From Kribbella aluminosa (GTDB taxonomy: Bacteria; Actinomycetota; Actinomycetes; Propionibacteriales; Kribbellaceae), in the NCBI RefSeq assembly GCF_017876295.1, contig NZ_JAGINT010000001.1, positions 3,658,001 to 3,722,000 of the forward strand: 64,000 bases of DNA, written 5' to 3'. A program made the position numbers and the translations under genes. Of the stretch, positions 3,590-43,020 are shown one piece after another. Position 1 is the stretch's first letter. Each line of letters opens with the position of its first letter. Below the pieces are notes generated by a model, which did no database searches, was not told where the DNA came from, and saw only the letters and a program-made list of their open reading frames with translations.

Positions 3590-3850
3590 GTGGTCTTCGT
3601 CCCGTTGACACTGATCGGAACCGCGGCCGGCTACCTCGGCTGGACAGCGGTCAGCCGCCGGTCTGCGGCCGCGCTCAAGGTGGTCGTGCCGGTGGTGCTC
3701 GTACTGTCGATGATCCCGGACCTGCTGCTGGCCACCAAGTTCATCCCAGCCACCTCCGGGACGGGCGTCGCGGGCCTGATGCTGATGCACGTGGTCGTGA
3801 CCGCCGTCGCCGTACCGGCGTACTCGCTCACCTCGCGGGCGGGTGCCTGA
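3590..3850 (+). CDS. Small membrane protein, DUF6069-like, possibly truncated
   Basis: Encodes about 86 residues with two to three hydrophobic segments (TLIGTAAGYLGW, VVVPVVLVLSMIPDLLLA, GLMLMHVVVTAVAVPAY). The order of segments and the GLMLMHVVV-AVAVPA ending resemble the C-terminal two thirds of small DUF6069 membrane proteins. Those normally start with one more membrane helix, so this copy could be 5'-truncated or could use a GTG at 3590. The gene is divergent from PucR and its 3' end overlaps the PIG-L gene by 23 bases in convergent orientation. Function unknown. Family assignment is by recall of pattern and moderate at best. Confidence 0.5.
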   Translation: MVFVPLTLIGTAAGYLGWTAVSRRSAAALKVVVPVVLVLSMIPDLLLATKFIPATSGTGVAGLMLMHVVVTAVAVPAYSLTSRAGA

Positions 3851-4649
3851 GGGAGGCGAACAGGTCGTCCAACGGTGCGCCTGGAGTGCGGCCGTGTTCG
3901 ACGTACCACTCGCGACCGAGCATCGATCGGAAGAGCCAGCGCGGGAGCTTGAGGAGCAGGCCCAGGGTGCGTGCCCCTTCGTCGGCGCTCGCCTGGCTCG
4001 CGTGCGCTTCGAACGACGCGCGCTTCTGCCGGGTGTACCGCCGTACGTCGACCCGATGCGTGATCGCGGCGCTGGGGGCGTAGGCGTGGTCGTACGCCGC
4101 CGTGGACACCGCGGGCAGGACGCCGGGGATCGCCGTCACGATCCGGATCAGCCGGCGGATCAGCCGCCGGTCGATCGTCGACTCGAGCACCAGCGGGGTC
4201 CCCGCCTGCTCAGCGGCGTACGTGCCGACGGTGTACACCTGCCGGTGATCGGGGTGCCCGTAGCCGCCGGCCGGGTCGTAGATCGTCAGCGCGTCGGCCT
4301 GCTCCTCCTGCAGGAGCTCGATCAACGGCTGCGCCGCCTCCGCGGCCGGGAGCGTGCTGAAACCGCCCTCCGCGGGCGGGCCCGACGATCCGGAGTCCTT
4401 GAACCCGAACCGCACCACCCGCGCACAGCCGAGCGCGGTCGCGGACCGCTCCAGCTCGTCCCGCCGGAACGCCGCCAGCCCGGGACCGGCGCGGTACGAC
4501 GAAGCCGACGCACCCGCCTCGCCGTCCGTGGCGACCGCGAGCACGACGCGGTGCCCTTCCGCGGCGAGCCGCGCGAGGGTGCCGCCCATCAGCAAGGCCT
4601 CGTCGTCCGGGTGTGCGTGGAACGCCACCAGCGTGTAAGGCCTGGCCAT
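3828..4649 (-). CDS. PIG-L family deacetylase (LmbE-like)
   Basis: Zinc-dependent N-acetylglucosaminyl-type deacetylase of about 273 residues. The metal-binding AHPDDE motif is at residues 11-16 and the second metal site GYGHPDHRQV is near the middle. Family members remove acetyl groups from GlcNAc-linked substrates (mycothiol pathway, glycolipids, antibiotics); which one applies here is not shown. The ATG at 4649 puts AHPDDE close to the N-terminus as usual; an in-frame ATG at 4661 is the alternative. The gene is divergent from the YbhN/glycosyltransferase operon and shares its 81-base promoter region, so a role in the same glycoconjugate pathway is plausible. Confidence 0.92.
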   Translation of the reverse strand: MARPYTLVAFHAHPDDEALLMGGTLARLAAEGHRVVLAVATDGEAGASASSYRAGPGLAAFRRDELERSATALGCARVVRFGFKDSGSSGPPAEGGFSTLPAAEAAQPLIELLQEEQADALTIYDPAGGYGHPDHRQVYTVGTYAAEQAGTPLVLESTIDRRLIRRLIRIVTAIPGVLPAVSTAAYDHAYAPSAAITHRVDVRRYTRQKRASFEAHASQASADEGARTLGLLLKLPRWLFRSMLGREWYVEHGRTPGAPLDDLFASLRHPPAR

Positions 4650-4690
4650 GCCTGCGAGCATGACATGCTGGGTAGAGGGTGGGCCAGTTC

Positions 4691-4708
4691 TTCTCAGCAC
4701 CCTCTCAG
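4691..4708 (+). promoter_or_regulatory. Direct repeat TTCTCAG-N5-TCTCAG, probable response-regulator site
   Basis: TTCTCAG (4691-4697), five bases, TCTCAG (4703-4708): half-sites repeat with an 11-base period, the spacing expected for tandem binding of an OmpR-type response regulator. The repeat lies 22 bases before the first gene of the operon that encodes such a regulator (7536-8195), so autoregulation is a simple reading. The same element with identical spacing occurs at 42100-42117. Confidence 0.5.
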
Positions 4709-4730
4709 CACGGGAGCGACAGGCTAGGTA

Positions 4731-5735
4731 ATGATGAACGAGCGAGAACGGCTTTCGGGTTGGCGACGGCGGCTGCTGACGTCCGTCCTGAGTGCGCTGG
4801 TAACGGGGGCCCTCGTGGTGTTCCTGCCACGAGCGGTCGGGTCGACCTGGCGTGAGGTGGGCAACATCCTCGCACGGGTGTCGGTCGGGTCGCTGATTCT
4901 GCTCGCTGTTGTGTGGCTCGCCGGGTTGTGGGCACATTCGTTCGTCCTGGCCGCGTCCTTGCCCGGGCTGTCGAAGCGCCGCGCGCTCACGCTGAGCCTG
5001 ACCGGCAGCGCGGTGGCAAACGTTCTCCCACTCGGTGGCGCCGTCGGTACGGCGCTGAACTTCACGATGGTCCGGCGCTGGGGTTTCACCCGGAATGCGT
5101 TCGGCAGCTACATCACCGTGACGACGCTGCTGAACGTGGTGTCCAAGCTCGGGGTGATCGCGATCGCGCTCGGCCTGGTGCCGATCCTGCACAGTGCTGC
5201 GGCGTTCGGGCCGAGCAGCCTGCTCTTCCTGCCGGTGCCGGTCGCCGTCCTGCTGGGCGTCTGGATCCTCGCCGACGAGCGGGCCGCCAAGATCGTCGGC
5301 CGCCAGTTGGACAAGGTGTTCCGGCGTTCGCGTCTCGAGGAACGGCTTCCCCGGTTCCGGCGGACGACGCTGCACCTGATGCGCACCGGCTGGCGGCCGA
5401 TGACCGGCGGGATGGTCGCGTACCTCGCACTGCAGCTGGCGTTGCTGTGGCTGTGCTTCCAGGTGCTGCACGTTCCGCTCGGCCTGGCGGTGCTGTTCAC
5501 GGCGCTGGCGGTGGAGCGGTTGCTGACCCTCGTGGCGATCACGCCGGGCAGCGCGGGTGTCGTCGAGATCGGTACGACGGCCGCGCTGGTCGCGCTCGGC
5601 GGTGACCCCGCAGGCGTTGCTGCGGGGTTGCTGCTGTTCCGCGGTTTCACGTTCCTGATGGAGATCCCGGTGGGCGGTGTGATGCTGGCGATCTGGACCT
5701 CCTTGCAGCGCCGGGCACAGGCGGTGGCGGCATGA
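4731..5735 (+). CDS. YbhN/LPG-synthase-type integral membrane protein
   Basis: Polytopic membrane protein of 334 residues with about eight hydrophobic helices, of the UPF0104/lysylphosphatidylglycerol synthase transmembrane family (YbhN). Only the membrane flippase-like part is present; there is no C-terminal aminoacyl-transferase domain, so it is not a complete MprF. Characteristic features are TGSAVANVLPLGGAVGTALN near residue 85-105 and the TPGSAGVVEIG block near 280. Such proteins are often next to glycosyltransferases and are thought to move or modify lipid-linked substrates. It is the first gene of a tightly packed operon and overlaps the next gene by 4 bases (ATGA). Confidence 0.88.
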   Translation: MMNERERLSGWRRRLLTSVLSALVTGALVVFLPRAVGSTWREVGNILARVSVGSLILLAVVWLAGLWAHSFVLAASLPGLSKRRALTLSLTGSAVANVLPLGGAVGTALNFTMVRRWGFTRNAFGSYITVTTLLNVVSKLGVIAIALGLVPILHSAAAFGPSSLLFLPVPVAVLLGVWILADERAAKIVGRQLDKVFRRSRLEERLPRFRRTTLHLMRTGWRPMTGGMVAYLALQLALLWLCFQVLHVPLGLAVLFTALAVERLLTLVAITPGSAGVVEIGTTAALVALGGDPAGVAAGLLLFRGFTFLMEIPVGGVMLAIWTSLQRRAQAVAA

Positions 5736-6799
5736 GGATCGCGTTGGTCAGCGACGTCTACCTGCCGCGGCTCGGTGGTATCGAGCTGCAGGTGCACGAT
5801 CTCGCCGTACACCTGATCCGGGCCGGTCACGACGTCACGGTCTACACGCTCAACCAGGGGCGCACCTCCGACGTACCCGTGGTCCGGCTGCCGGCGGTGG
5901 CCGGCATGCCGTCGCCGTCGGCGGTTGACCGGCTGCGGTCCGAGCTGCCGTCGTTCGACATCGTGCATGCGCACTCGTCGATCGTGTCGCCGCTGGCCTG
6001 GCGGGCTGCCCGGCTGGCGCGGGCCGCGCTGATCACCGTGCATTCGTTGCCCGGGCCGACGATGCCGTGGCCGCTGGCGCAGCTCGATCGGTACGTCGGG
6101 AACGTCGGATGGACGGCGGTCAGTGGGGCGGTCGCGAATGTGATCCGCCGAGCGCTGCCGGGGCGTGCGGTCGACGTACTGCACAACGGGGTCGACCCGG
6201 CCGCCTGGCGTCCGGCGCAGCGTCCGCAGCACCCGTTGACGATCGTGAGCACGATGCGGCTGGCCCGCCGGAAGCGTCCGCTCGCGTTGCTGGACACGCT
6301 CGCGGCGATCCGCGACCTCGTACCGTCGAACGTGCCGCTCCGCGGCGTGATCGCCGGGGCCGGGCCGCGTGAGCGCGCACTCGACGCCCGGCGGCGGGAC
6401 TTCGCCCCGTGGGTGGAGCTTCCCGGCCGGTTGACGCGGTACGAGTTGCAGCAGCTGTACGCCTCCGCCGACGTCTACCTCGCGCCCGCGGAGCTGGAGT
6501 CGTTCGGTGTCGCGGCGCTCGAAGCGCGGTGTGCCGGGCTGCCGGTGGTCGCGATGTCGACGGGTGGCGTCGGCGAGTTCATCCGCAACGGCATCGAGGG
6601 GTACCTCGTCGACACGGACCAGGAGATGGCCCGGACCACAGCGGCGCTGCTGACGAATCCCGCGGTCCTGCATCGGCTGCAGCAGTACAACCAGCACACT
6701 CTGCCGAGCATGACCTGGGAGCGGGTGATCGCTCAGCATGTGTCGGCGTACCAGTCTCAGCTTGTCCGCAGAGAGGGATCCCTAGCCTCGGCATCATGA
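5732..6799 (+). CDS. Glycosyltransferase family 4
   Basis: GT-B fold retaining glycosyltransferase of 355 residues. The N-terminus MRIALVSDVYLPRLGGIE is the typical GT4 acceptor-domain start with a glycine-rich loop; HAHSS is near residue 74, and the C-terminal nucleotide-sugar site appears as APAELESFGVAALEARCAGLPVV (near 250-272) including the conserved E-x7-E pattern. Likely product is a glycolipid or phosphoinositol mannoside-like glycoside; donor and acceptor cannot be read from sequence. It overlaps the YbhN-like gene upstream and the ApbE gene downstream by 4 bases each, arguing for translational coupling. Confidence 0.92.
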   Translation: MRIALVSDVYLPRLGGIELQVHDLAVHLIRAGHDVTVYTLNQGRTSDVPVVRLPAVAGMPSPSAVDRLRSELPSFDIVHAHSSIVSPLAWRAARLARAALITVHSLPGPTMPWPLAQLDRYVGNVGWTAVSGAVANVIRRALPGRAVDVLHNGVDPAAWRPAQRPQHPLTIVSTMRLARRKRPLALLDTLAAIRDLVPSNVPLRGVIAGAGPRERALDARRRDFAPWVELPGRLTRYELQQLYASADVYLAPAELESFGVAALEARCAGLPVVAMSTGGVGEFIRNGIEGYLVDTDQEMARTTAALLTNPAVLHRLQQYNQHTLPSMTWERVIAQHVSAYQSQLVRREGSLASAS

Positions 6800-7539
6800 G
6801 GCGGACCTGGGTCGAGCAGGTGATGGGGATGCCCGTCAGCCTGCTGGCCCGGGGAGAGTACGCGGAGTCCGCCGAGGTGGAGGCTGCGGTCAAGGAGCTG
6901 TACGTCGAGCTGAGCGACGTCGACCGGGTGTTCTCGACGTACAAGCCGGACAGCGAGGTCAGCCGGCTGGGGCGCGGCGAGGTCGGGTGGGACGAGGTCG
7001 ACCCCGACGTCCGCGTTGTCGCCGAGCGGTGCGCTGCGGCGCGGGAGCTGACCGGCGGCCTGTTCGACGCGGACCTGCCGGCCGGCGGGTGGGATCCGTC
7101 CGGGCTGGTGAAGGGCTGGGCGGTCGAGCGTGTGGGGGGCCTGCTGCGGGCGGTGGACGGCGTCGACTGGTGCCTGAACGCGGGCGGCGACGTCCTCGTG
7201 ATCTGCCCGAGCGCGGAGCCGTTCACGATCGGCATCCAGGACCCGCACGATCCGGGCCGGGTGGTCGCGAGCCTGGCACGGACCGGGGGAGCGGTCGCGA
7301 CCAGCGGTACGGCGGCGCGGGGCGCGCACCTGTACGACCCGCGGACCGGTCGCCCGGCGACGAGCCGGTGGCTGTCGGTCTCGGTGAGCGGGGCCTCGCT
7401 GGAGTACGCCGACGTCCTCGCCACGGCGGCGTACGTCGCCGGGGACGGCTGGCCCGAGGTCCTGCTGCCTGGGTACGACGGACTCGGAGTGCTTGCTGAC
7501 GGCAACCTTCAGGCGACGCCCGGGTGGGGCGTGGCGTGA
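6796..7539 (+). CDS. apbE: FAD:protein FMN transferase (ApbE), cytosolic short form
   Basis: Transfers FMN from FAD to a Ser/Thr in the D-x-x-S/T-G-A-T/S motif of target flavoproteins. The protein is 247 residues, shorter than the exported lipoprotein forms (about 300-350), and starts MRRTWVEQVMGMPVS with no signal peptide or lipobox. Family blocks are present: LNAGGDVLV, GGAVATSGTAARG, HLYDPRTGRPA. Two proteins carrying perfect target motifs are encoded 3.3 kb downstream in the same run of genes (10872-11800), which makes them the obvious substrates. The start overlaps the glycosyltransferase stop (ATGA) and the stop overlaps the response-regulator start (GTGA). Confidence 0.94.
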   Translation: MRRTWVEQVMGMPVSLLARGEYAESAEVEAAVKELYVELSDVDRVFSTYKPDSEVSRLGRGEVGWDEVDPDVRVVAERCAAARELTGGLFDADLPAGGWDPSGLVKGWAVERVGGLLRAVDGVDWCLNAGGDVLVICPSAEPFTIGIQDPHDPGRVVASLARTGGAVATSGTAARGAHLYDPRTGRPATSRWLSVSVSGASLEYADVLATAAYVAGDGWPEVLLPGYDGLGVLADGNLQATPGWGVA

Positions 7540-8195
7540 GCGGGCGGATCCTCCTGATCGAGGATGACGCGGACCTGGCCGGCATGCTCGACCGGGTGCT
7601 CAGCGACGAGGGGTACGCCGTGAAGCGCGCCGCGGACGGGCATACCGGCCTGCACGTCGCGCTGACCCGGCCGTTCGACGCGATGATCGTCGACCGGGGA
7701 CTGCCTGCGGTGGAGGGCCTGGACCTGATTGCGCGGTTGCGCAGCCGGGGCGTCGGTACGCCGATCCTCGTGCTGTCGGCGCGGAACAGTGCCGGGGACC
7801 GCGTCGACGGGCTCGACGCCGGCGCGGAGGACTACCTGACCAAGCCGTTCGAGCTGACCGAGTTGCTGGCTCGCGTCCGGGCGTTGCTGCGGCGGCACCT
7901 CGATCATGCGGTGCAACTCGCCGTACCGGGTGGCCTGCTCGACCTCTCGACGCGCACTGTCCAGCAGGCGTCCGGCGGACGTGTGGAGCTGTCCGAGCGG
8001 GAGGCAGCGCTGCTCGGTCTACTGGCGGCCCGTCCCGGAGTCGTGTTCAGCCGGGCGGACCTGCTGGACCGGGTCTTCGACGATGCGGAGTCCGAGACGG
8101 TCGTGGACACGTACGTGCACTACTGCCGACGGAAGCTCGGGCAGGGCGTGATCAGTACGGTGCGCGGCCTCGGCTATCGGCTGGGTGGTCCATGA
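7536..8195 (+). CDS. OmpR-family response regulator
   Basis: Receiver plus winged-helix DNA-binding response regulator, 219 residues from a GTG that overlaps the ApbE stop codon. Receiver acidic pair is IEDDADL at the N-terminus, the phospho-acceptor aspartate is in MIVDRGLP near residue 52, the conserved Thr/Ser and Lys are in LVLSARN and LTKPFE. The C-terminal domain has the trans-activation fold with TYVHYCRRKLG and the terminal VRGLGYRLG typical of OmpR/PhoB. It is paired with the kinase that follows with a 4-base overlap. Likely target sites are the TTCTCAG-N5-TCTCAG repeats described separately (inference). Confidence 0.96.
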   Translation: MSGRILLIEDDADLAGMLDRVLSDEGYAVKRAADGHTGLHVALTRPFDAMIVDRGLPAVEGLDLIARLRSRGVGTPILVLSARNSAGDRVDGLDAGAEDYLTKPFELTELLARVRALLRRHLDHAVQLAVPGGLLDLSTRTVQQASGGRVELSEREAALLGLLAARPGVVFSRADLLDRVFDDAESETVVDTYVHYCRRKLGQGVISTVRGLGYRLGGP

Positions 8196-9412
8196 GCGGC
8201 CGGCCGATAGGCGACGAGGTCCTGGTACGGCGTGCGGCGCGGGGCGTCGCCGTACAGGCCGCGGCGCTGGTCGCGCTGGCGATGCTGCTGCTGATCGTGC
8301 TGGTCACCGTGGTGATGATCCACGGGCAGTCCGTCGCTGCCGACGACCTGCTCAGGGCCGCGCTCGCCAGCGCGGACGACGTGGTCGATCCGCCGGTGGG
8401 CACCTGGCTGGTGATGAGCAACTCGGCGTCACCCGGTCTACCGGACGACCTTCGGCCGGACCTGGAGGCGCTGCGGACCGAGGCCGCCAACCACATCCAG
8501 GTGACCACGGTCGAGGACGACGACGGCGAGTACCGGATCGCGACCGGGTTGGTGAAGGGCCGTCCGGTGCAGGCGGTGCTCGACCTCGCGTCCCAGCACA
8601 AGGAACAGGCCCGCATGCTGCAGGCGATGGGACTGGCCACGGTGCTGGCGCTGCTGCTCGCCGGGTTGCTCGGCGTGCTGGTCGGGCGTCGCGCCGTACG
8701 GCCGTTGGCGCAGGCGTTGACGTTGCAGCGTGCGTTCGTGGCGAATGCGGGACATGAGTTGCGGACTCCGCTGACGTTGCTCAGTACGCGGGCTCAGCTG
8801 CTCGGGCGGTCGCTGCATCGCGACGGTGCGAGCGAGCAGGTCCTGGACGACGCGGACGGAGTGGTCCGCGACACGCGGCGGTTGACCGAGGTCGTCGACG
8901 ACCTGCTCGCGGCCGCCGATCCGCGGCGGGCGGAGGAGCCGGAGCCGGTCGACCTGGTCGTCCTCGCGCAGGACGTCGCCGAGGCGGCGAGTGCGCATGC
9001 CCAGCAGGTGGGTGTCCGGGTACGGTCGGCTGCGGATCGTGACAGTGCGCCCGCGCTCGGTTCGGCGAGCGCGATCCGGCGGGCGGCGATCGCGCTCGTT
9101 GACAACGCGATCGATCACACGCCTAGTGGTGGTGAGGTGCGGATCGCCGTCCGGAGGGAGCGCCGGGACGTGATCGTGTCGGTCAGCGACACCGGGCCCG
9201 GGATCGGTCCGGAGGCGGCGCAGCGGGTGCTGCGGCGGTTCGACTCGAGCGGTCAGCGGCGCGGGAGGGCGCACTACGGGCTCGGTCTGGCGCTCGCGCA
9301 CGACGTCGCGAACCGGTTCGGCGGGCAGTTGCGGCTGGCGCCGAGCGAGGTCGGGGCGACGTTCGAACTGGTGCTTCCGGCGCTCCGCGAGGACGGTCCA
9401 AGGAAGAGCTAA
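8192..9412 (+). CDS. Sensor histidine kinase (HisKA/HATPase), membrane-bound
   Basis: Orthodox membrane kinase, 406 residues. Two membrane helices (about residues 20-45 and 148-170) bracket a roughly 100-residue extracytoplasmic sensor loop; a short linker leads to the phospho-acceptor H-box FVANAGHELRTPL near residue 188. The ATP-binding part has the N-box VDNAIDHTPSGG and G-boxes DTGPGIGP and YGLGLAL. No PAS or other recognisable input domain is seen, so the stimulus is unknown; its position between ApbE and the flavocytochrome suggests an envelope or redox cue. Partner is the response regulator immediately upstream. Confidence 0.95.
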   Translation: MSGRPIGDEVLVRRAARGVAVQAAALVALAMLLLIVLVTVVMIHGQSVAADDLLRAALASADDVVDPPVGTWLVMSNSASPGLPDDLRPDLEALRTEAANHIQVTTVEDDDGEYRIATGLVKGRPVQAVLDLASQHKEQARMLQAMGLATVLALLLAGLLGVLVGRRAVRPLAQALTLQRAFVANAGHELRTPLTLLSTRAQLLGRSLHRDGASEQVLDDADGVVRDTRRLTEVVDDLLAAADPRRAEEPEPVDLVVLAQDVAEAASAHAQQVGVRVRSAADRDSAPALGSASAIRRAAIALVDNAIDHTPSGGEVRIAVRRERRDVIVSVSDTGPGIGPEAAQRVLRRFDSSGQRRGRAHYGLGLALAHDVANRFGGQLRLAPSEVGATFELVLPALREDGPRKS

Positions 9413-9436
9413 GAATCCGCGGGCATCGTCGGGGGC

Positions 9437-10858
9437 ATGACCCACCGCGGAGCCGCTCCTGCGATCAGCAGGCCGCGGATGCCGCACGTACGGCGCCGGA
9501 CGCCGCGGACGCCGGCGTGGTGGCGGGACGCGGCCGGCATCGCGTGCTGGGCGAGCGTGCTGGTGGTCGTCGCGCTGTGGGTCTCGGGGCGCGGGCTGCA
9601 GAGCCTGCTCAGCGGTCCGGCGGACCTGCTGACGTCACTCGGCCGCCTCACCGGGCTGGTGTCGGCCGACCTGTTGCTCGTGCAGGTGATCCTGATGGCC
9701 CGGGTGCCGATGATCGAGCGGAGCTACGGGCAGGACGAGCTGGCCCGGCGGCATCGGCTGGTCGGGTTCTGGTCGTTCAACCTGCTACTCGTACACGTAG
9801 TGCTGATCCTGGTCGGATACACGCTCCGCGATCACAACGACCTGCTGCACGAGACGTGGACGGTGGTCACGACGTACGGCGGGATGCTGCTCGCGACAGC
9901 GGCGGCGATCGCGCTGACGGTGGTCGTGGTGACGTCGATCCGGGCGGCCCGGAAGGTACTGCGGTACGAGTCGTGGCACCTGCTGCACCTGTACGCGTAC
10001 GTCGGCGTCGGGCTGTCCGTGCCGCATGAGATCTGGACCGGAGCGGACTTCTCGACGTCGCGGCCGGCGCAGGTCTACTGGTGGTCGGCGTACGGCGTCG
10101 CGGCCGGGGCGATCGTGCTGTACCGATTGCTGTTGCCGGCCTGGCGGACGGTGCGGTACGGGCTCACGGTGCGTGAGGTGATCCAGGAAGCGCCCGGTGT
10201 GGTGACGGTGCTGATCGGCGGGCGCGAGCTGCATCGGATGCCGGTGCGGGCCGGGCAGTACTTCGTATTCCGGTTCCTCGACGGACCGGGATGGTCGCGC
10301 GGGAATCCGTACTCGTTGTCGGCGTCGCCGGCTCCGGATCGACTTCGGGTGACGGCGAAGGCGGCCGGTGACGGCAGCGGTCGCCTGGCGCGGCTGCGTC
10401 CGGGAACGCGGGTCGCGGTCGAGGGACCGTACGGGCGGCTGACCGCGGAGCGGCGGGTGACGGAGCGAGTCGCGATGTTTGCCTGCGGCATCGGTATCAC
10501 GCCGCTGCGGGCGTTGCTCGAGGAGCTCGAGTACCGGCCGGGGGAGGCGGTGCTCGTGTATCGCGCGCACAGTGCCGAGGACCTGGTGTTCCGGGACGAG
10601 CTGGAACAGCTCGCACGACGGCGGGGGATCGCCGTGCACTACCTGCTCGGACCACGGTTGCGACGGCGCCGGTCGTGGTTGCCGGACGGTGCGGCGACGT
10701 GGTCGGACGAGTACGCCGTACGACGGCTGGTGCCGGGGATCACGGCGTACGACGTGTATGTGTGCGGACCCGACCCGTGGATGGACGCGGTCGCGGCTGC
10801 GGTGCTGAAGGCCGGGTTGCCGTCGAACCAGCTGCACCAGGAACGCTTCTCGTGGTGA
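9437..10858 (+). CDS. Ferric-reductase-like transmembrane flavocytochrome / ferredoxin reductase family
   Basis: Membrane electron-transfer protein of 473 residues: a six-helix ferric-reductase-like domain with paired histidines for two b hemes (RRHRLVGFW...LLLVH near 92-112, and SWHLLHLYA, plus SVPHE), followed by a cytoplasmic FAD/NAD(P)H reductase domain. FAD binding is shown by GNPYSLSASP, nucleotide binding by GIGITPLRALLEE and the C-terminal VYVCGPDPWMDAV. It should take electrons from cytosolic NAD(P)H and pass them across the membrane. The two FMN-binding exported proteins encoded next are the natural electron acceptors. Begins 24 bases after the kinase stop. Confidence 0.93.
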   Translation: MTHRGAAPAISRPRMPHVRRRTPRTPAWWRDAAGIACWASVLVVVALWVSGRGLQSLLSGPADLLTSLGRLTGLVSADLLLVQVILMARVPMIERSYGQDELARRHRLVGFWSFNLLLVHVVLILVGYTLRDHNDLLHETWTVVTTYGGMLLATAAAIALTVVVVTSIRAARKVLRYESWHLLHLYAYVGVGLSVPHEIWTGADFSTSRPAQVYWWSAYGVAAGAIVLYRLLLPAWRTVRYGLTVREVIQEAPGVVTVLIGGRELHRMPVRAGQYFVFRFLDGPGWSRGNPYSLSASPAPDRLRVTAKAAGDGSGRLARLRPGTRVAVEGPYGRLTAERRVTERVAMFACGIGITPLRALLEELEYRPGEAVLVYRAHSAEDLVFRDELEQLARRRGIAVHYLLGPRLRRRRSWLPDGAATWSDEYAVRRLVPGITAYDVYVCGPDPWMDAVAAAVLKAGLPSNQLHQERFSW

Positions 10859-10871
10859 AAGGAGAACGTGC

Positions 10872-11357
10872 GTGAGGCGCGGGATCAGACTGCTGATGAC
10901 GGTGGCGACGACGGCGGTTGTCGCGGTGGCGTTCCGCGCCAGCCTGCAACAGCCCACCACAACCACAGGCGCGGCCGCGGTGGTCAGCTCGACGACGCCT
11001 CCGGCCAACCATCACGTCCGGCGCTCCACCCCATCACCCAAGACAAAGCCAACCACCCCGGTGAGAAAGTCGGTTGTGGTTGCAGGCGGTGTGGTGAACA
11101 CGCAGTACGGCCCGGTGCAGGTGGAGGTTTCTGTTGGCGGCGGGAAGATCGCCAAGGCTCACACCCTGCAACATCCGAGCGGTGACGGACGCACCGACCA
11201 GATCAACGGGTACGCCGTACCGCAGCTCGACCAGGAGACCATGACCGCGCAGAACGCGCACATCGACACCGTCTCCGGAGCGACCTTCACCTCCGAGGGC
11301 TACCGCCAATCGCTCCAGTCCGCCCTCGACGCCGCCCACCGAGCGGGCGCCCTGTGA
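10872..11357 (+). CDS. Exported FMN-binding protein 1 (ApbE target)
   Basis: FMN-binding domain protein of 161 residues. The N-terminus MRRGIRLLMTVATTAVVAVAF is a signal anchor with a twin arginine; a Thr/Pro-rich linker (about 28-65) follows, then one FMN-binding domain. The flavinylation motif DTVSGAT spans residues 132-138, with Thr138 the predicted FMN attachment site. Start is a GTG at 10872 preceded by AAAGGAGAAC, 13 bases after the flavocytochrome stop. It should carry covalently bound FMN outside the membrane and accept electrons from the flavocytochrome. It overlaps the next, homologous gene by 4 bases. Confidence 0.92.
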   Translation: MRRGIRLLMTVATTAVVAVAFRASLQQPTTTTGAAAVVSSTTPPANHHVRRSTPSPKTKPTTPVRKSVVVAGGVVNTQYGPVQVEVSVGGGKIAKAHTLQHPSGDGRTDQINGYAVPQLDQETMTAQNAHIDTVSGATFTSEGYRQSLQSALDAAHRAGAL

Positions 11358-11800
11358 CCGCCCACTCCCAGCGACTCCGCCGCAACCTCCTCGTCGGCGG
11401 CAGCACCGGCGTACTGCTCCTTCTCCTCTTCCTCTACCCAACCAGCATCAACCACGTCGACCATCCGGCGACACCGGCAGCCGCACCCGGAGTCGTGAGT
11501 ACGTCGGCCGGCGACGTGACGGTGAACGGCACCTCGGCCGGCACCCGGTACGGCCCCGTGCAGGTCCGGATCACCGTCCGCGCCGGCCGGCTGACGGCCG
11601 TCGACGCGCTCGTCTACCCTTCGTCCGGTGGGCGGGACCGCGAGATCAGCTCGTACGCGCTGCCGCAGCTCGAGCAGGAAGCGCTTGCCGCGCAGAACTC
11701 GCACATCGATACGGTGTCCGGGGCAACATTCACGTCCGACGGGTATCGTCGCTCGCTGCAGTCCGCACTGGACGCAGCGCATTTCCGCAGCGCCGGCTGA
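11354..11800 (+). CDS. Exported FMN-binding protein 2 (ApbE target, tandem paralogue)
   Basis: Second single-domain FMN-binding protein, 148 residues. The N-terminus has LRRNLLVGG before a very hydrophobic helix (GVLLLLLFLYP), then a short linker and the FMN-binding domain. The flavinylation motif DTVSGAT is at residues 119-125, identical to protein 1, and the C-terminal 30 residues are nearly identical (SHIDTVSGATFTSDGYR), so the pair arose by tandem duplication. Start GTG overlaps the preceding stop. Whether the two proteins pass electrons in series or serve different acceptors is unknown. Confidence 0.9.
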   Translation: MTAHSQRLRRNLLVGGSTGVLLLLLFLYPTSINHVDHPATPAAAPGVVSTSAGDVTVNGTSAGTRYGPVQVRITVRAGRLTAVDALVYPSSGGRDREISSYALPQLEQEALAAQNSHIDTVSGATFTSDGYRRSLQSALDAAHFRSAG

Positions 11801-11913
11801 GGGCCGCCGGAGTTCGCTGACGGTCCAGCGGGCCGCGTGAAACGTGCCAGACCGGGGTGCTACCTGATAGACACGGGGACCGGTACGTGTTGCGGACAGG
11901 GAAGCGGCTTCCG

Positions 11914-12378
11914 ATGGTGATGGCATGGCGGTTCGGCGCCGTTGGCGTGGACGCTGTCATGGCCGTGATCCAGGACCCGGCACAGTTCGCGGACTGGATG
12001 GTGGCCGTACCGCCGGAGGTGCGCGCCGGACCGAACTGGCCGCAGAAGGGCAGCGTCGTGCAACGGTACGACGGCCGCGAACCACGCATGCGGCACGCCG
12101 AGAACCGGCACCTGACGGTGGCCCTGGTCGAACGCTGGCGTCCGGAGGACGAACTGATCCTCCGGCTGCGCAGCGGTCTCGGCGGGTGGGTCCGGATCTG
12201 GATCAAGGTGCAACCGCGTCCGGGCGGCGCGCTGATCGAGGTCCGCGCCGAGCCGCTCACCGCGACCGCCCGCCTGCGCTTCACCGGCGCCTCCCGCGGC
12301 CGCGCCGAGGAACGCTGCGTCCAGGTCGCCGAGCGCCTCATCGCGCTGGCCACGACCGAAGAACCCGCAGTGGACTGA
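11914..12378 (+). CDS. SRPBCC (START-like) family protein
   Basis: About 154 residues from the ATG at 11914; in-frame GTG codons at 11857 and 11887 are alternatives. The pattern FGAVGVDAVMAVIQDPAQFADWM at the start, a middle with alternating strands (WVRIWIKV, ALIEVRAEP) and a long C-terminal helix (RAEERCVQVAERLIALA) matches a polyketide-cyclase/SRPBCC helix-grip fold that binds hydrophobic ligands. It is a single gene 113 bases after the FMN-binding pair and convergent with the MDR reductase. Specific function unknown. Confidence 0.7.
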   Translation: MVMAWRFGAVGVDAVMAVIQDPAQFADWMVAVPPEVRAGPNWPQKGSVVQRYDGREPRMRHAENRHLTVALVERWRPEDELILRLRSGLGGWVRIWIKVQPRPGGALIEVRAEPLTATARLRFTGASRGRAEERCVQVAERLIALATTEEPAVD

Positions 12379-15003: not shown

Positions 15004-15185
15004 GCGATATCTCCCCGTGAGATATGAGTTGTCGCCCGCCCGAAGGTGTCGATCGAAGTCACTCGGAACGACTGGGGCGGTCGTGAGCCGGATGGCACCC
15101 GCCCTTTCCTACCGGAAGGTATGAGGTCGCGCAAGCACTCCGGTCCCGTGTTTTGCGCGCCTTCACGAACCGGCCACCCGAATCC

Positions 15186-15794
15186 TCAGCCGCCACTCAG
15201 CGCGCTCTCAGGCGAGAGGTCCTTGAGGATTCGGCGCAGCCTGTTGGTGGCGCGGAACTGGAGCTGTTTGATGGCGCCGTCGGTGCGATCCATCGCGGTC
15301 GCGGTCTCGTTGATCGACAGGCCGGCGAAGAAGCGCAGCAGCAGGCACTCGCGCTGGTCGTCGGGCAGCCGGCCGAGGGCGGCACGCAGTGCCGCCTCGC
15401 CGACGGAGGCGAGCGCGGCCGCTTCCGGGCCGATCGCCTCGTCGACCTGCGGGTCGACCTCGTCGGTGACGATCGCCAGCCGGCTCCAGCCGGAGCGGTG
15501 ATGGTCGATCACCACGTTCCTGGCGATCGTGACCAGCCAGGCCGCGAAGTTCAGGTGCGCTCGTGGCCGGCGGGCGATCGCGCGGAACGCCCGCAGGAAC
15601 GTCTCGCTGGTCAGGTCCTCGGCCGCACTCCGCGACGAGGTCTTGCTGTAGGTGTACCGGTAGATCGACGGCAGGTACCGGTCGTAGAGCAACCCGAAGG
15701 CCGCTCCGTCTCCCGCTTGCGCGAGCCGGACCAGTTCGTCCTCGTCGTCTTCGGTGTGGACGGTGGCGGTGCGTGCAGCCATGTGTATGGACAT
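15186..15794 (-). CDS. ECF-type RNA polymerase sigma factor
   Basis: Sigma-70 family protein of about 202 residues. Region 2 covers AGDGAAFGLLYDRYLPSIYR through AEDLTSETFLRAFRAI and NFAAWLVTIARNVVIDHHR; region 4 is ALGRLPDDQRECLLLRFFAG and ETATAMDRTDGAIKQLQFRA, ending in LRRIL. Start is uncertain: ATG codons at 15827, 15794 and 15782 and a TTG at 15848 are in frame, none with a strong ribosome site. No anti-sigma gene is adjacent; the next gene on the strand, 182 bases on, is the disordered protein, a possible target or partner. Confidence 0.92.
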   Translation of the reverse strand: MSIHMAARTATVHTEDDEDELVRLAQAGDGAAFGLLYDRYLPSIYRYTYSKTSSRSAAEDLTSETFLRAFRAIARRPRAHLNFAAWLVTIARNVVIDHHRSGWSRLAIVTDEVDPQVDEAIGPEAAALASVGEAALRAALGRLPDDQRECLLLRFFAGLSINETATAMDRTDGAIKQLQFRATNRLRRILKDLSPESALSGG

Positions 15795-42099: not shown

Positions 42100-42117
42100 T
42101 TCTCAGGGTTCTCTCAG
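42100..42117 (+). promoter_or_regulatory. Direct repeat TTCTCAG-N5-TCTCAG, second copy
   Basis: TTCTCAG (42100-42106), five bases, TCTCAG (42112-42117); identical half-sites and spacing to 4691-4708. It lies 60 bases before the GT2 start. Two copies in 64 kb, both before glycosyltransferase operons, suggest control by the same response regulator. Confidence 0.5.
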
Positions 42118-42177
42118 TGATCGCTCGCAAGGATGACACTCGTCCTGCTCAGCGCGCGCACAGGAGAGGCAGGCAGC

Positions 42178-43020
42178 ATGGGTGGGCCGAGGCCGAGGTT
42201 CAGCGTGGTGATCCCCGCGTTCAACGAGGAGCGGTTGATCGCGGAGTGCCTGCGATCACTTGCCCGGCAGGACTTCGCCGGCGGGTACGAGGTCATTGTC
42301 GTCGACAACAACTGCACCGACCGGACCGCGGAGATCGCCCGGAGCTGCGGCGCGATCGTCGTCCCTGAGGAGACGCCCGGAGTGTGCGCGGCGCGGCATC
42401 GCGGGACCCTGTCGGCGAACGGCGAGATCGTGGTGTCGACCGATGCCGACACGGTGTTCGGGACCGGTTGGCTCGCGGGGATCGACCGGACGTTCCGGCA
42501 ATGCGCTGGGCGGGTCGCCGTCGCCGGTCCCTGCCGGTACCCCGAGGGGCCGTGGTGGGGCAAGGTGTACGCGCGGATCCTGTTCGAGGCGGTGTATCTG
42601 ACGTACCGGGTCACCGGGCGGGTCGGGTACGTCACCGCGACGAACATCGCGTTCCGCAAGGACGCCTGGTCCGGGTACGACCTGACCGGCACGCAGGGCG
42701 CCGACGAGCTGGGGCTGCTCCGGCAGCTGCGTTCACGCGGCAAGGTCGCGTTCGACCGCGGCAACCCGACCCTGACGTCCGCGCGCCGGCTCGCGCAGGG
42801 CCTGACGTACAACGTGATCGTGTCGTTCCTGTACTACTACGCCCTCGCCGTCACGCTGAACCGGCTGGCGGGGCGGACCGTGATCGGCACCGCACCGTGC
42901 TTCCGGACCGACCGGCGCTGGCCGGCGTCGCGGCGGTACCGGACGCGGGTGCTCGCGATCGGCTGGCTGGTCGCGGCCGCGGCGGCGACGGTACTGACGG
43001 ACCGGTTGATGGACGGCTGA
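42178..43020 (+). CDS. Glycosyltransferase family 2
   Basis: 280 residues. GT-A fold motifs: FSVVIPAFNEERLIAECLRS at the start, VIVVDNNCTDRTAEIA, STDADTVFGTGWL (metal-binding D-x-D), and GADELGLLRQLRSRGKV. A C-terminal hydrophobic segment (TYNVIVSFLYYYALAV, and VLAIGWLVAAAAATVL) suggests membrane association. Donor and acceptor are unknown. The start ATG at 42178 has AGGAGAGGCAGGCAGC upstream. Its stop overlaps the broken polysaccharide deacetylase sequence that follows, the usual partner gene. Confidence 0.9.
   Translation: MGGPRPRFSVVIPAFNEERLIAECLRSLARQDFAGGYEVIVVDNNCTDRTAEIARSCGAIVVPEETPGVCAARHRGTLSANGEIVVSTDADTVFGTGWLAGIDRTFRQCAGRVAVAGPCRYPEGPWWGKVYARILFEAVYLTYRVTGRVGYVTATNIAFRKDAWSGYDLTGTQGADELGLLRQLRSRGKVAFDRGNPTLTSARRLAQGLTYNVIVSFLYYYALAVTLNRLAGRTVIGTAPCFRTDRRWPASRRYRTRVLAIGWLVAAAAATVLTDRLMDG

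Follow-up and report, generated by a model that had tools for sequence, protein, structure and literature searches.

Background

How does a bacterium furnish proteins outside its membrane with covalent flavin when the enzyme that attaches the flavin carries no signal for export? The question is raised by an operon of the soil bacterium Kribbella aluminosa, located in a 64,000-nucleotide stretch of DNA (hereafter the window; G000:C1:3658001-3722000 of the 8.94-Mb genome) and encoding a flavin transferase of the ApbE family, a response regulator (RR), a histidine kinase (HK), a flavocytochrome and two proteins that bind flavin mononucleotide (FMN), designated FMN1 and FMN2. Here we describe this operon as real and conserved: a variant, apparently under kinase control, of an electron-export class already known, with a function predicted from its parts. 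Our reading, in which we place slightly more trust than doubt, is that of an MsrQ-like, or NADPH oxidase (NOX)-like, flavinylated electron-export operon with its own two-component switch, in which FMN would be attached before or during export of the carrier proteins. The sequence itself shows the genes and their order, the motifs, four His of the flavocytochrome, the lack of a leader on ApbE and the conservation of the set; the biochemistry, the timing of flavinylation relative to export, the operator, the signal and the acceptor are inferred. The core cluster and its electron route were already known in kind, and the route sketched in a first-pass annotation of this DNA appears sound in outline; the topology of flavinylation is the new and surprising part.

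Operon anatomy and conservation

A search of open reading frames (ORFs) and Pfam families placed YbhN, GT4, ApbE, RR, kinase, flavocytochrome, FMN1 and FMN2 genes in one row and a single direction. The features that carry the main argument are:

6796-7539, + strand: ApbE flavin transferase, no signal peptide (PF02424, E 2e-35)
7536-8195, + strand: OmpR-type response regulator, GTG start by sequence reading (PF00072, PF00486)
8192-9412, + strand: sensor histidine kinase (HisKA, HATPase_c)
9437-10858, + strand: NOX/MsrQ-like flavocytochrome, Ferric_reduct membrane domain plus flavin adenine dinucleotide (FAD)/NAD(P)H domain (PF01794; PF00175, E 2.5e-7)
10872-11357, + strand: FMN-binding protein 1 (FMN1), N-terminal anchor (PF04205, E 1.1e-9; hydropathy 2.24)
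11265-11285, + strand: DTVSGAT flavinylation motif, Thr138 of FMN1 (motif read in ORF)
11354-11800, + strand: FMN-binding protein 2 (FMN2), N-terminal anchor with RRNLL (PF04205, E 3.7e-8; hydropathy 2.31)
11708-11728, + strand: DTVSGAT flavinylation motif, Thr125 of FMN2 (motif read in ORF)

Neighbouring genes overlap by 4 bases at five of the seven joints (YbhN/GT4, GT4/ApbE, ApbE/RR, RR/HK and FMN1/FMN2), and short gaps separate HK from the flavocytochrome (24 bases) and the flavocytochrome from FMN1 (13 bases). The first-pass description of genes packed in one direction with 4-base overlaps was thus right in direction and at most joints, and slightly overstated at the two gaps. Its reading of DTVSGAT in both targets, with the last Thr at 138 and 125, agrees with ours; the consensus D-x-x-S/T-G-A-T/S lies inside the FMN_bind domain of both proteins, which are predicted ApbE substrates.

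The locus has the marks of an MsrQ-like cluster: a PF01794 protein near FMN_bind and apbE genes, a C-terminal PF00175 NAD-binding domain (found in most but not all members of such clusters), heme-type His pairs, and targets with a leader as scored by hydropathy. Orthologs of the flavocytochrome (at least 74% identity) were sought in 36 other genomes of the genus and were present in 14. The synteny search that had been suggested for kinase-ApbE-flavocytochrome-FMN_bind sets gave a clear outcome in these, since the order ApbE-RR-HK-flavocytochrome-FMN1-FMN2 is kept in 14/14 of the Kribbella orthologous loci. Taken with the matches of ApbE and both FMN_bind proteins above the Pfam cut-offs, this argues that the arrangement is more than chance.

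An ApbE without a leader and its predicted exported targets

The start codon of the window ApbE is an ATG overlapping the GT4 stop codon, and the protein bears neither an N-terminal signal peptide nor a lipobox, the marks of a secreted ApbE. In a structural model (pLDDT 92.7) the first core strand is predicted to span residues 2-9, and the best Foldseek matches of that model are solved ApbEs (TMq up to 0.88); by fold and family (PF02424) the protein is a predicted flavin transferase. The core begins 36-42 residues in for the NQR, extracellular electron transfer (EET) and E. coli enzymes.

Leaders were scored as a 14-residue stretch with a mean hydropathy of at least 1.8 within the 70 residues before the core, a measure distinct from SignalP, using the best ApbE match at each of 85 loci (81 N-termini readable, 4 unreadable). 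A clear hydrophobic leader was found in 0/81 readable cluster ApbEs, with a maximum of 1.59 (L131); one of the 81 rows (L124) carries a stop codon further in. Control ApbEs scored 2.84 (NQR), 2.86 (EET), 2.14 and 1.69 (Nos) and 2.23 (E. coli). Annotated starts agree with a leaderless ApbE in three plasmid MsrQ-like sets, and the ApbEs of Rahnella and Lactococcus, whose targets are leaderless, are leaderless as well. Even with matches listed to E <= 10, the K. aluminosa genome yielded three ApbEs and no more, and all three are leaderless.

The FMN-binding proteins present the opposite picture. Our sample comprised 120 with the motif and 12 more without a motif match; an N-terminal hydrophobic segment is present in 119/119 of those whose start could be placed, and 5/6 annotated plasmid proteins pass 1.8. 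The anchor has basic residues on its N-terminal side and Ser/Thr/Pro-rich linkers on its C-terminal side so that, by the positive-inside rule, the FMN domain is predicted to lie outside. Ahead of the hydrophobic stretch there is a twin Arg in 90/119 and Lys-Arg in 14, the others having neither; the twin Arg of FMN2 is kept in the listed Kribbella orthologs.

An ApbE without a leader and targets that are exported leave three possibilities: flavinylation before or during export, exit of ApbE by another route, or an FMN domain that faces inward. This conflict is the main problem in the earlier claim of covalent FMN outside, which had passed over it. We favour the first possibility because FAD is cytosolic, because an extracytosolic ApbE necessitates extracytosolic FAD according to the relevant part of the Listeria work (PMC9973259), and because of the position of the motif: DxxSGAT is near the C-terminus and would be one of the last segments to exit the cytosol. 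On this reading ApbE would stay in the cytosol with FAD and put FMN on Thr138 in FMN1 and on Thr125 in FMN2, either ahead of their export or in its course. The N-terminal segment would then anchor the finished proteins, leaving the FMN domain outside, and no FAD exporter would be needed.

Several points weigh against this order of events. The starts behind the 119/119 count were chosen to maximise hydropathy, the 1.8 threshold misses one of the five leader-bearing controls (the Phaeobacter Nos enzyme, 1.69), and the Mesorhizobium plasmid FMN-binding protein reaches only 1.26 (first 45 residues). It is unproven that a flavinylated chain can pass through Sec. Tat, considered as the general route, was rejected, since the KR or KK found in several anchors rules out folded export by this pathway for the class as a whole; some anchors, such as that of FMN2, do look Tat-like. 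Furthermore, a FAD exporter gene lies beside some MsrQ-like systems, as stated in a section of the same Listeria work (PMC9973259), so that not the whole class need flavinylate before export.

The alternative that survives best, though we hold it to be unlikely, is that ApbE leaves the cell by a route that needs no classical leader and modifies its targets once they are outside, as happens in characterised systems, the rest of the mechanism being unchanged. The characterised extracytosolic targets covered by the pertinent parts of two papers (PMC12052999, PMC9973259) were all flavinylated outside, and the FMN domain would be able to fold there first. External FAD would still be required, however, the leader is absent from every readable cluster ApbE, and a survey of gene order and ORFs found no recurrent accessory exporter in the operon; some ORF calls in that survey, as in those of the RR-kinase loci, plasmid RRs and independent pairs below, come from a GC-contrast heuristic that misses genes. 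More doubtful still is an arrangement in which the FMN domains face the cytosol and, alongside cytosolic ApbE and flavins, serve a sensor at the membrane or a redox chain linked to NAD(P)H inside the cell. It would remove the topology conflict, but the residues flanking the anchor on either side point the other way.

There are other leaderless ApbEs. Three FMN_bind proteins are encoded in the K. aluminosa genome, which at a distance of about 174 kb from the operon has a second, kinase-free set made up of a flavocytochrome (49% identical), FMN_bind and ApbE. The third ApbE is on another contig (L007:5700-7465; G000:C2 near 2276000), leaderless; its gene comes after a short Ser-rich ORF that probably encodes an anchor, and it overlaps a membrane-protein gene with a weak, below-cut-off cytochrome b561 match. 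No DxxSGAT motif was found around it in L007 4400-7600, and its neighbourhood possibly holds an unusual ApbE target. The same split between a leaderless ApbE and a leader-bearing target, here DUF2271, is found with PepSY and VIT genes on a Pseudosulfitobacter plasmid (L250:1295-4945). A Mesorhizobium plasmid (L188:2803-10571) carries VIT, FMN-binding protein, leaderless ApbE, RnfD-like, kinase, RR, PepSY and DUF2231 genes, a different membrane carrier with similar partners, and Lactobacillales plasmids (L187, L190) have a cassette of FMN-binding protein, leaderless ApbE and FAD-binding oxidoreductase.

The flavocytochrome and the predicted electron route

Residues H106, H120, H184 and H197 of the flavocytochrome are invariant in 12/12 aligned relatives, with pair spacings of 14 and 13 residues. 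Across both halves the protein matches PDB 8qq7 and 8qta (E 1.2e-19), which we take to be Streptococcus NOX. This anatomy fits the part of the first-pass annotation that traced electrons from NAD(P)H to external FMN: they would pass from NAD(P)H to FAD, through two hemes to the external FMNs, and on to a further acceptor. The likely use is a signal-gated electron outlet, which would serve under oxygen shortage or in the reduction of ferric iron.

The best full-length PDB relatives being NOX-like chains, the flavocytochrome might instead be a superoxide-making NOX, with the FMN proteins as side carriers or a shield; in the part of the literature that treats it (PMC12052999), a three-FMN flavinylated protein is credited with the ability to use oxygen. 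We consider this improbable. FMN_bind or ApbE is nearby in 104/116 flavocytochrome loci, which suggests FMN as the main acceptor.

The kinase-regulator pair

The first-pass annotation regarded the joining of such a set to a kinase pair as unusual. Instead, 14/14 Kribbella orthologs keep the pair, and it recurs in other genera and on plasmids. A public-genome scan was taken as its best 80 loci, 6 of which repeat Kribbella loci already in the set; with relatives added and Kribbella orthologs left out, this gave 89 other flavinylated loci, and the same RR family (at least 50% identity) stands beside the cluster in 11/89. Plasmids of Streptomyces, Microbacterium, Citricoccus and Mesorhizobium (the last with an RnfD-like carrier) pair such sets with an RR and a kinase, and only the Citricoccus RR among them belongs to the family of the window RR (58%). 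Mapped on a tree of the flavocytochromes, membership in the RR family switches at least 12 times, a figure that truncated contigs inflate, which suggests that attachment of the kinase pair was recurrent or often lost. Within its own genome the RR has no further match at E <= 1e-40.

To compare cluster contents, loci with less than 4 kb on either side were left out and 94/136 in groups A-E were kept. Any RR is nearby in 26/63 clusters vs 4/31 control loci (p 0.009), the 63 including 11 non-independent Kribbella orthologs. In the kinase, an N-terminal stretch between likely membrane segments has P67, P68, W72, G82 and P84 invariant in 22/22 aligned sequences; the kinase would sense an envelope signal and activate the RR. 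The pair offers a possible way to learn under which conditions cells use an electron outlet of this kind.

Direct control by DosR was rejected. A DevR/DosR-like RR is present in 8/104 flavinylated loci vs 1/20 random loci (for example L137, matching 3c3w at E 1.7e-74), and the DosR/OsdR palindrome GGGNCNNNNGNCCC is not enriched near the operons, with 0.044 per kb in Kribbella loci vs 0.037 in random loci. Its sole site near the window operon is 1995 bases upstream of the flavocytochrome start.

DUF2231 and universal stress proteins

Among clusters with 4 kb on both sides, DUF2231 is found in 11/18 kinase-bearing (RR-family) clusters vs 3/45 without (Fisher p 1.3e-5) and in 0/31 control loci. 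In phylogenetically independent pairs, 4-5/7 agree and none disagree (sign test p 0.0625-0.125), so the link is suggestive after correction for kinship. DUF2231 has three invariant His in 11/11 aligned sequences, and its model is that of a small membrane protein with four predicted helices (mean pLDDT 74.9, moderate), for which Foldseek returned no PDB relative at E <= 0.001. It may be a heme or electron carrier, and we regard it as a candidate partner of the system. The window operon itself has no DUF2231, the one PF09990 match of the genome being elsewhere. No description of DUF2231 with flavinylation was recognised in the literature searched, subscription papers, figures and supplements aside.

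In several Kribbella loci DUF2231 comes just after FMN2 in the same direction (L078:12495-12986 and orthologs). It also lies in the fetched stretch of 6/7 RR-kinase loci without a flavocytochrome (L192-L198). Universal stress proteins are neighbours of 8/18 kinase-bearing clusters vs 3/45 without and 0/31 controls; independent pairs gave no clear trend, and this link was set aside as a weak hint.

Direct repeats and the YbhN/GT4 genes

Upstream of the system described above, the row begins with two further genes, and similar direct repeats precede ybhN and apbE:

4693-4709, + strand: candidate RR operator, an exact direct repeat CTCAGC-N5-CTCAGC that begins 38 bases ahead of the ybhN ATG (pattern match)
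4731-5735, + strand: YbhN-like membrane protein, lysylphosphatidylglycerol synthase TM region (LPG_synthase_TM; PF03706, E 2e-22)
5732-6799, + strand: GT4 glycosyltransferase (PF00534, E 5e-23; PF13439, E 2e-17)
6756-6772, + strand: imperfect direct-repeat copy with 2 mismatches that begins 40 bases ahead of the apbE ATG (pattern match)

The repeat has an 11-base period, a spacing typical of OmpR-type operators. At the Kribbella locus L040 the box is found 37-38 bases before ybhN with 1 mismatch and as an exact copy 40 bases before apbE; it also precedes apbE in L049, L050 and L051 (1, 0 and 0 mismatches). The exact pattern, picked after inspecting sequences, occurs in 8 copies in the 8.94-Mb genome vs 1 for a reversed control pattern. 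A shared promoter-proximal box hints at co-regulation of ybhN and apbE, and in this genome the RR may bind the CTCAGC repeats before both genes.

Four observations count against this reading. The box was not found before apbE in 10/14 orthologs (up to 2 mismatches allowed), another genome (G030) has 17 exact copies, and one copy in the K. aluminosa genome stands ahead of the gene for another RR, so that assigning the box to the operon's own RR is tentative. The RR family itself also occurs away from any flavocytochrome, at 7 loci. RR-kinase pairs of this family without a flavocytochrome are at L192:6782-9223 and in L193-L198.

YbhN and GT4 adjoin the operon in 2/15 Kribbella loci (the window and L040) and in 0/89 other flavinylated loci, so the glycoconjugate module is as rare a companion as had been supposed. 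That the operon mainly serves glycoconjugate building, with the redox part modifying the YbhN/GT4 products, is very improbable given this rarity, even though 4-base overlaps join the two genes to the operon and similar boxes precede ybhN and apbE at both loci.

Elsewhere in the window, an exact CTCAGC repeat with a third half-site lies at the 3' end of a sigma-factor-like ORF (15185-15212), and no likely gene was found downstream of it; a related repeat, with two TCTCAG copies spaced 11 bases apart, precedes a family 2 glycosyltransferase gene (42102-42178). A divergent PIG-L deacetylase (3846-4691, - strand), related to MshB/Mca but below those curated cut-offs, has a counterpart adjoining the L040 operon too. 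The ORF after FMN2 (11857-12378) has no Pfam match and is SRPBCC-like by eye only.

Comparison with known systems

No description of a leaderless ApbE with exported targets was recognised in the literature searched, again with subscription papers, figures and supplements aside. We tentatively propose, at a little under even confidence, that there is a second way to external flavoproteins: a large class, Actinobacterial with some others, would use a leaderless ApbE and cytosolic FAD to flavinylate the carrier inside the cell and export it afterwards, with no FAD exporter, and the RR family of its kinase-bearing branch would also travel with DUF2231, a possible further carrier.

The closest known systems are the MsrQ-like clusters, of which 1797 were reported with broad conservation in Actinobacteria in the part of Meheust 2021 that concerns them (PMC8238504). 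Like these clusters, which occur mainly in Actinobacteria, the Kribbella set joins a PF01794 protein with NAD domain, an FMN-binding protein and apbE; unlike the clusters as described there, it has a second FMN protein, and an RR and a kinase are embedded in it. That its ApbE is leaderless is a point not found in the text of that paper, figures and supplements aside.

Bacterial NADPH oxidases (PDB 8qq7, 8qta) share the fusion of a heme-membrane domain to a FAD/NAD(P)H domain, a likeness of sequence relation only, whereas the Kribbella flavocytochrome is genetically tied to flavinylated acceptors. Cytosolic ApbEs of Klebsiella and trypanosomatids likewise have no signal peptide, but their targets, as described in the corresponding portion of PMC12052999, are intracellular fumarate reductases, and the Kribbella targets are membrane-anchored and predicted to face outward.

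With Listeria EET (FmnB, PplA, EetB; PMC9973259), the operon shares membrane-held FMN proteins predicted to act outside as electron carriers. There, in the sections that describe the system, the ApbE (FmnB) is located outside and supplied with exported FAD; in Kribbella the ApbE is leaderless and the electron donor would be a NOX-like flavocytochrome. Those sections treat an extracytosolic ApbE with an outside FAD supply as the general case. If the Actinobacterial MsrQ-like class does flavinylate before export, then the problem of an outside flavin supply has been solved in another way, and how a protein with covalent FMN crosses Sec, YidC or Tat becomes a direct question.

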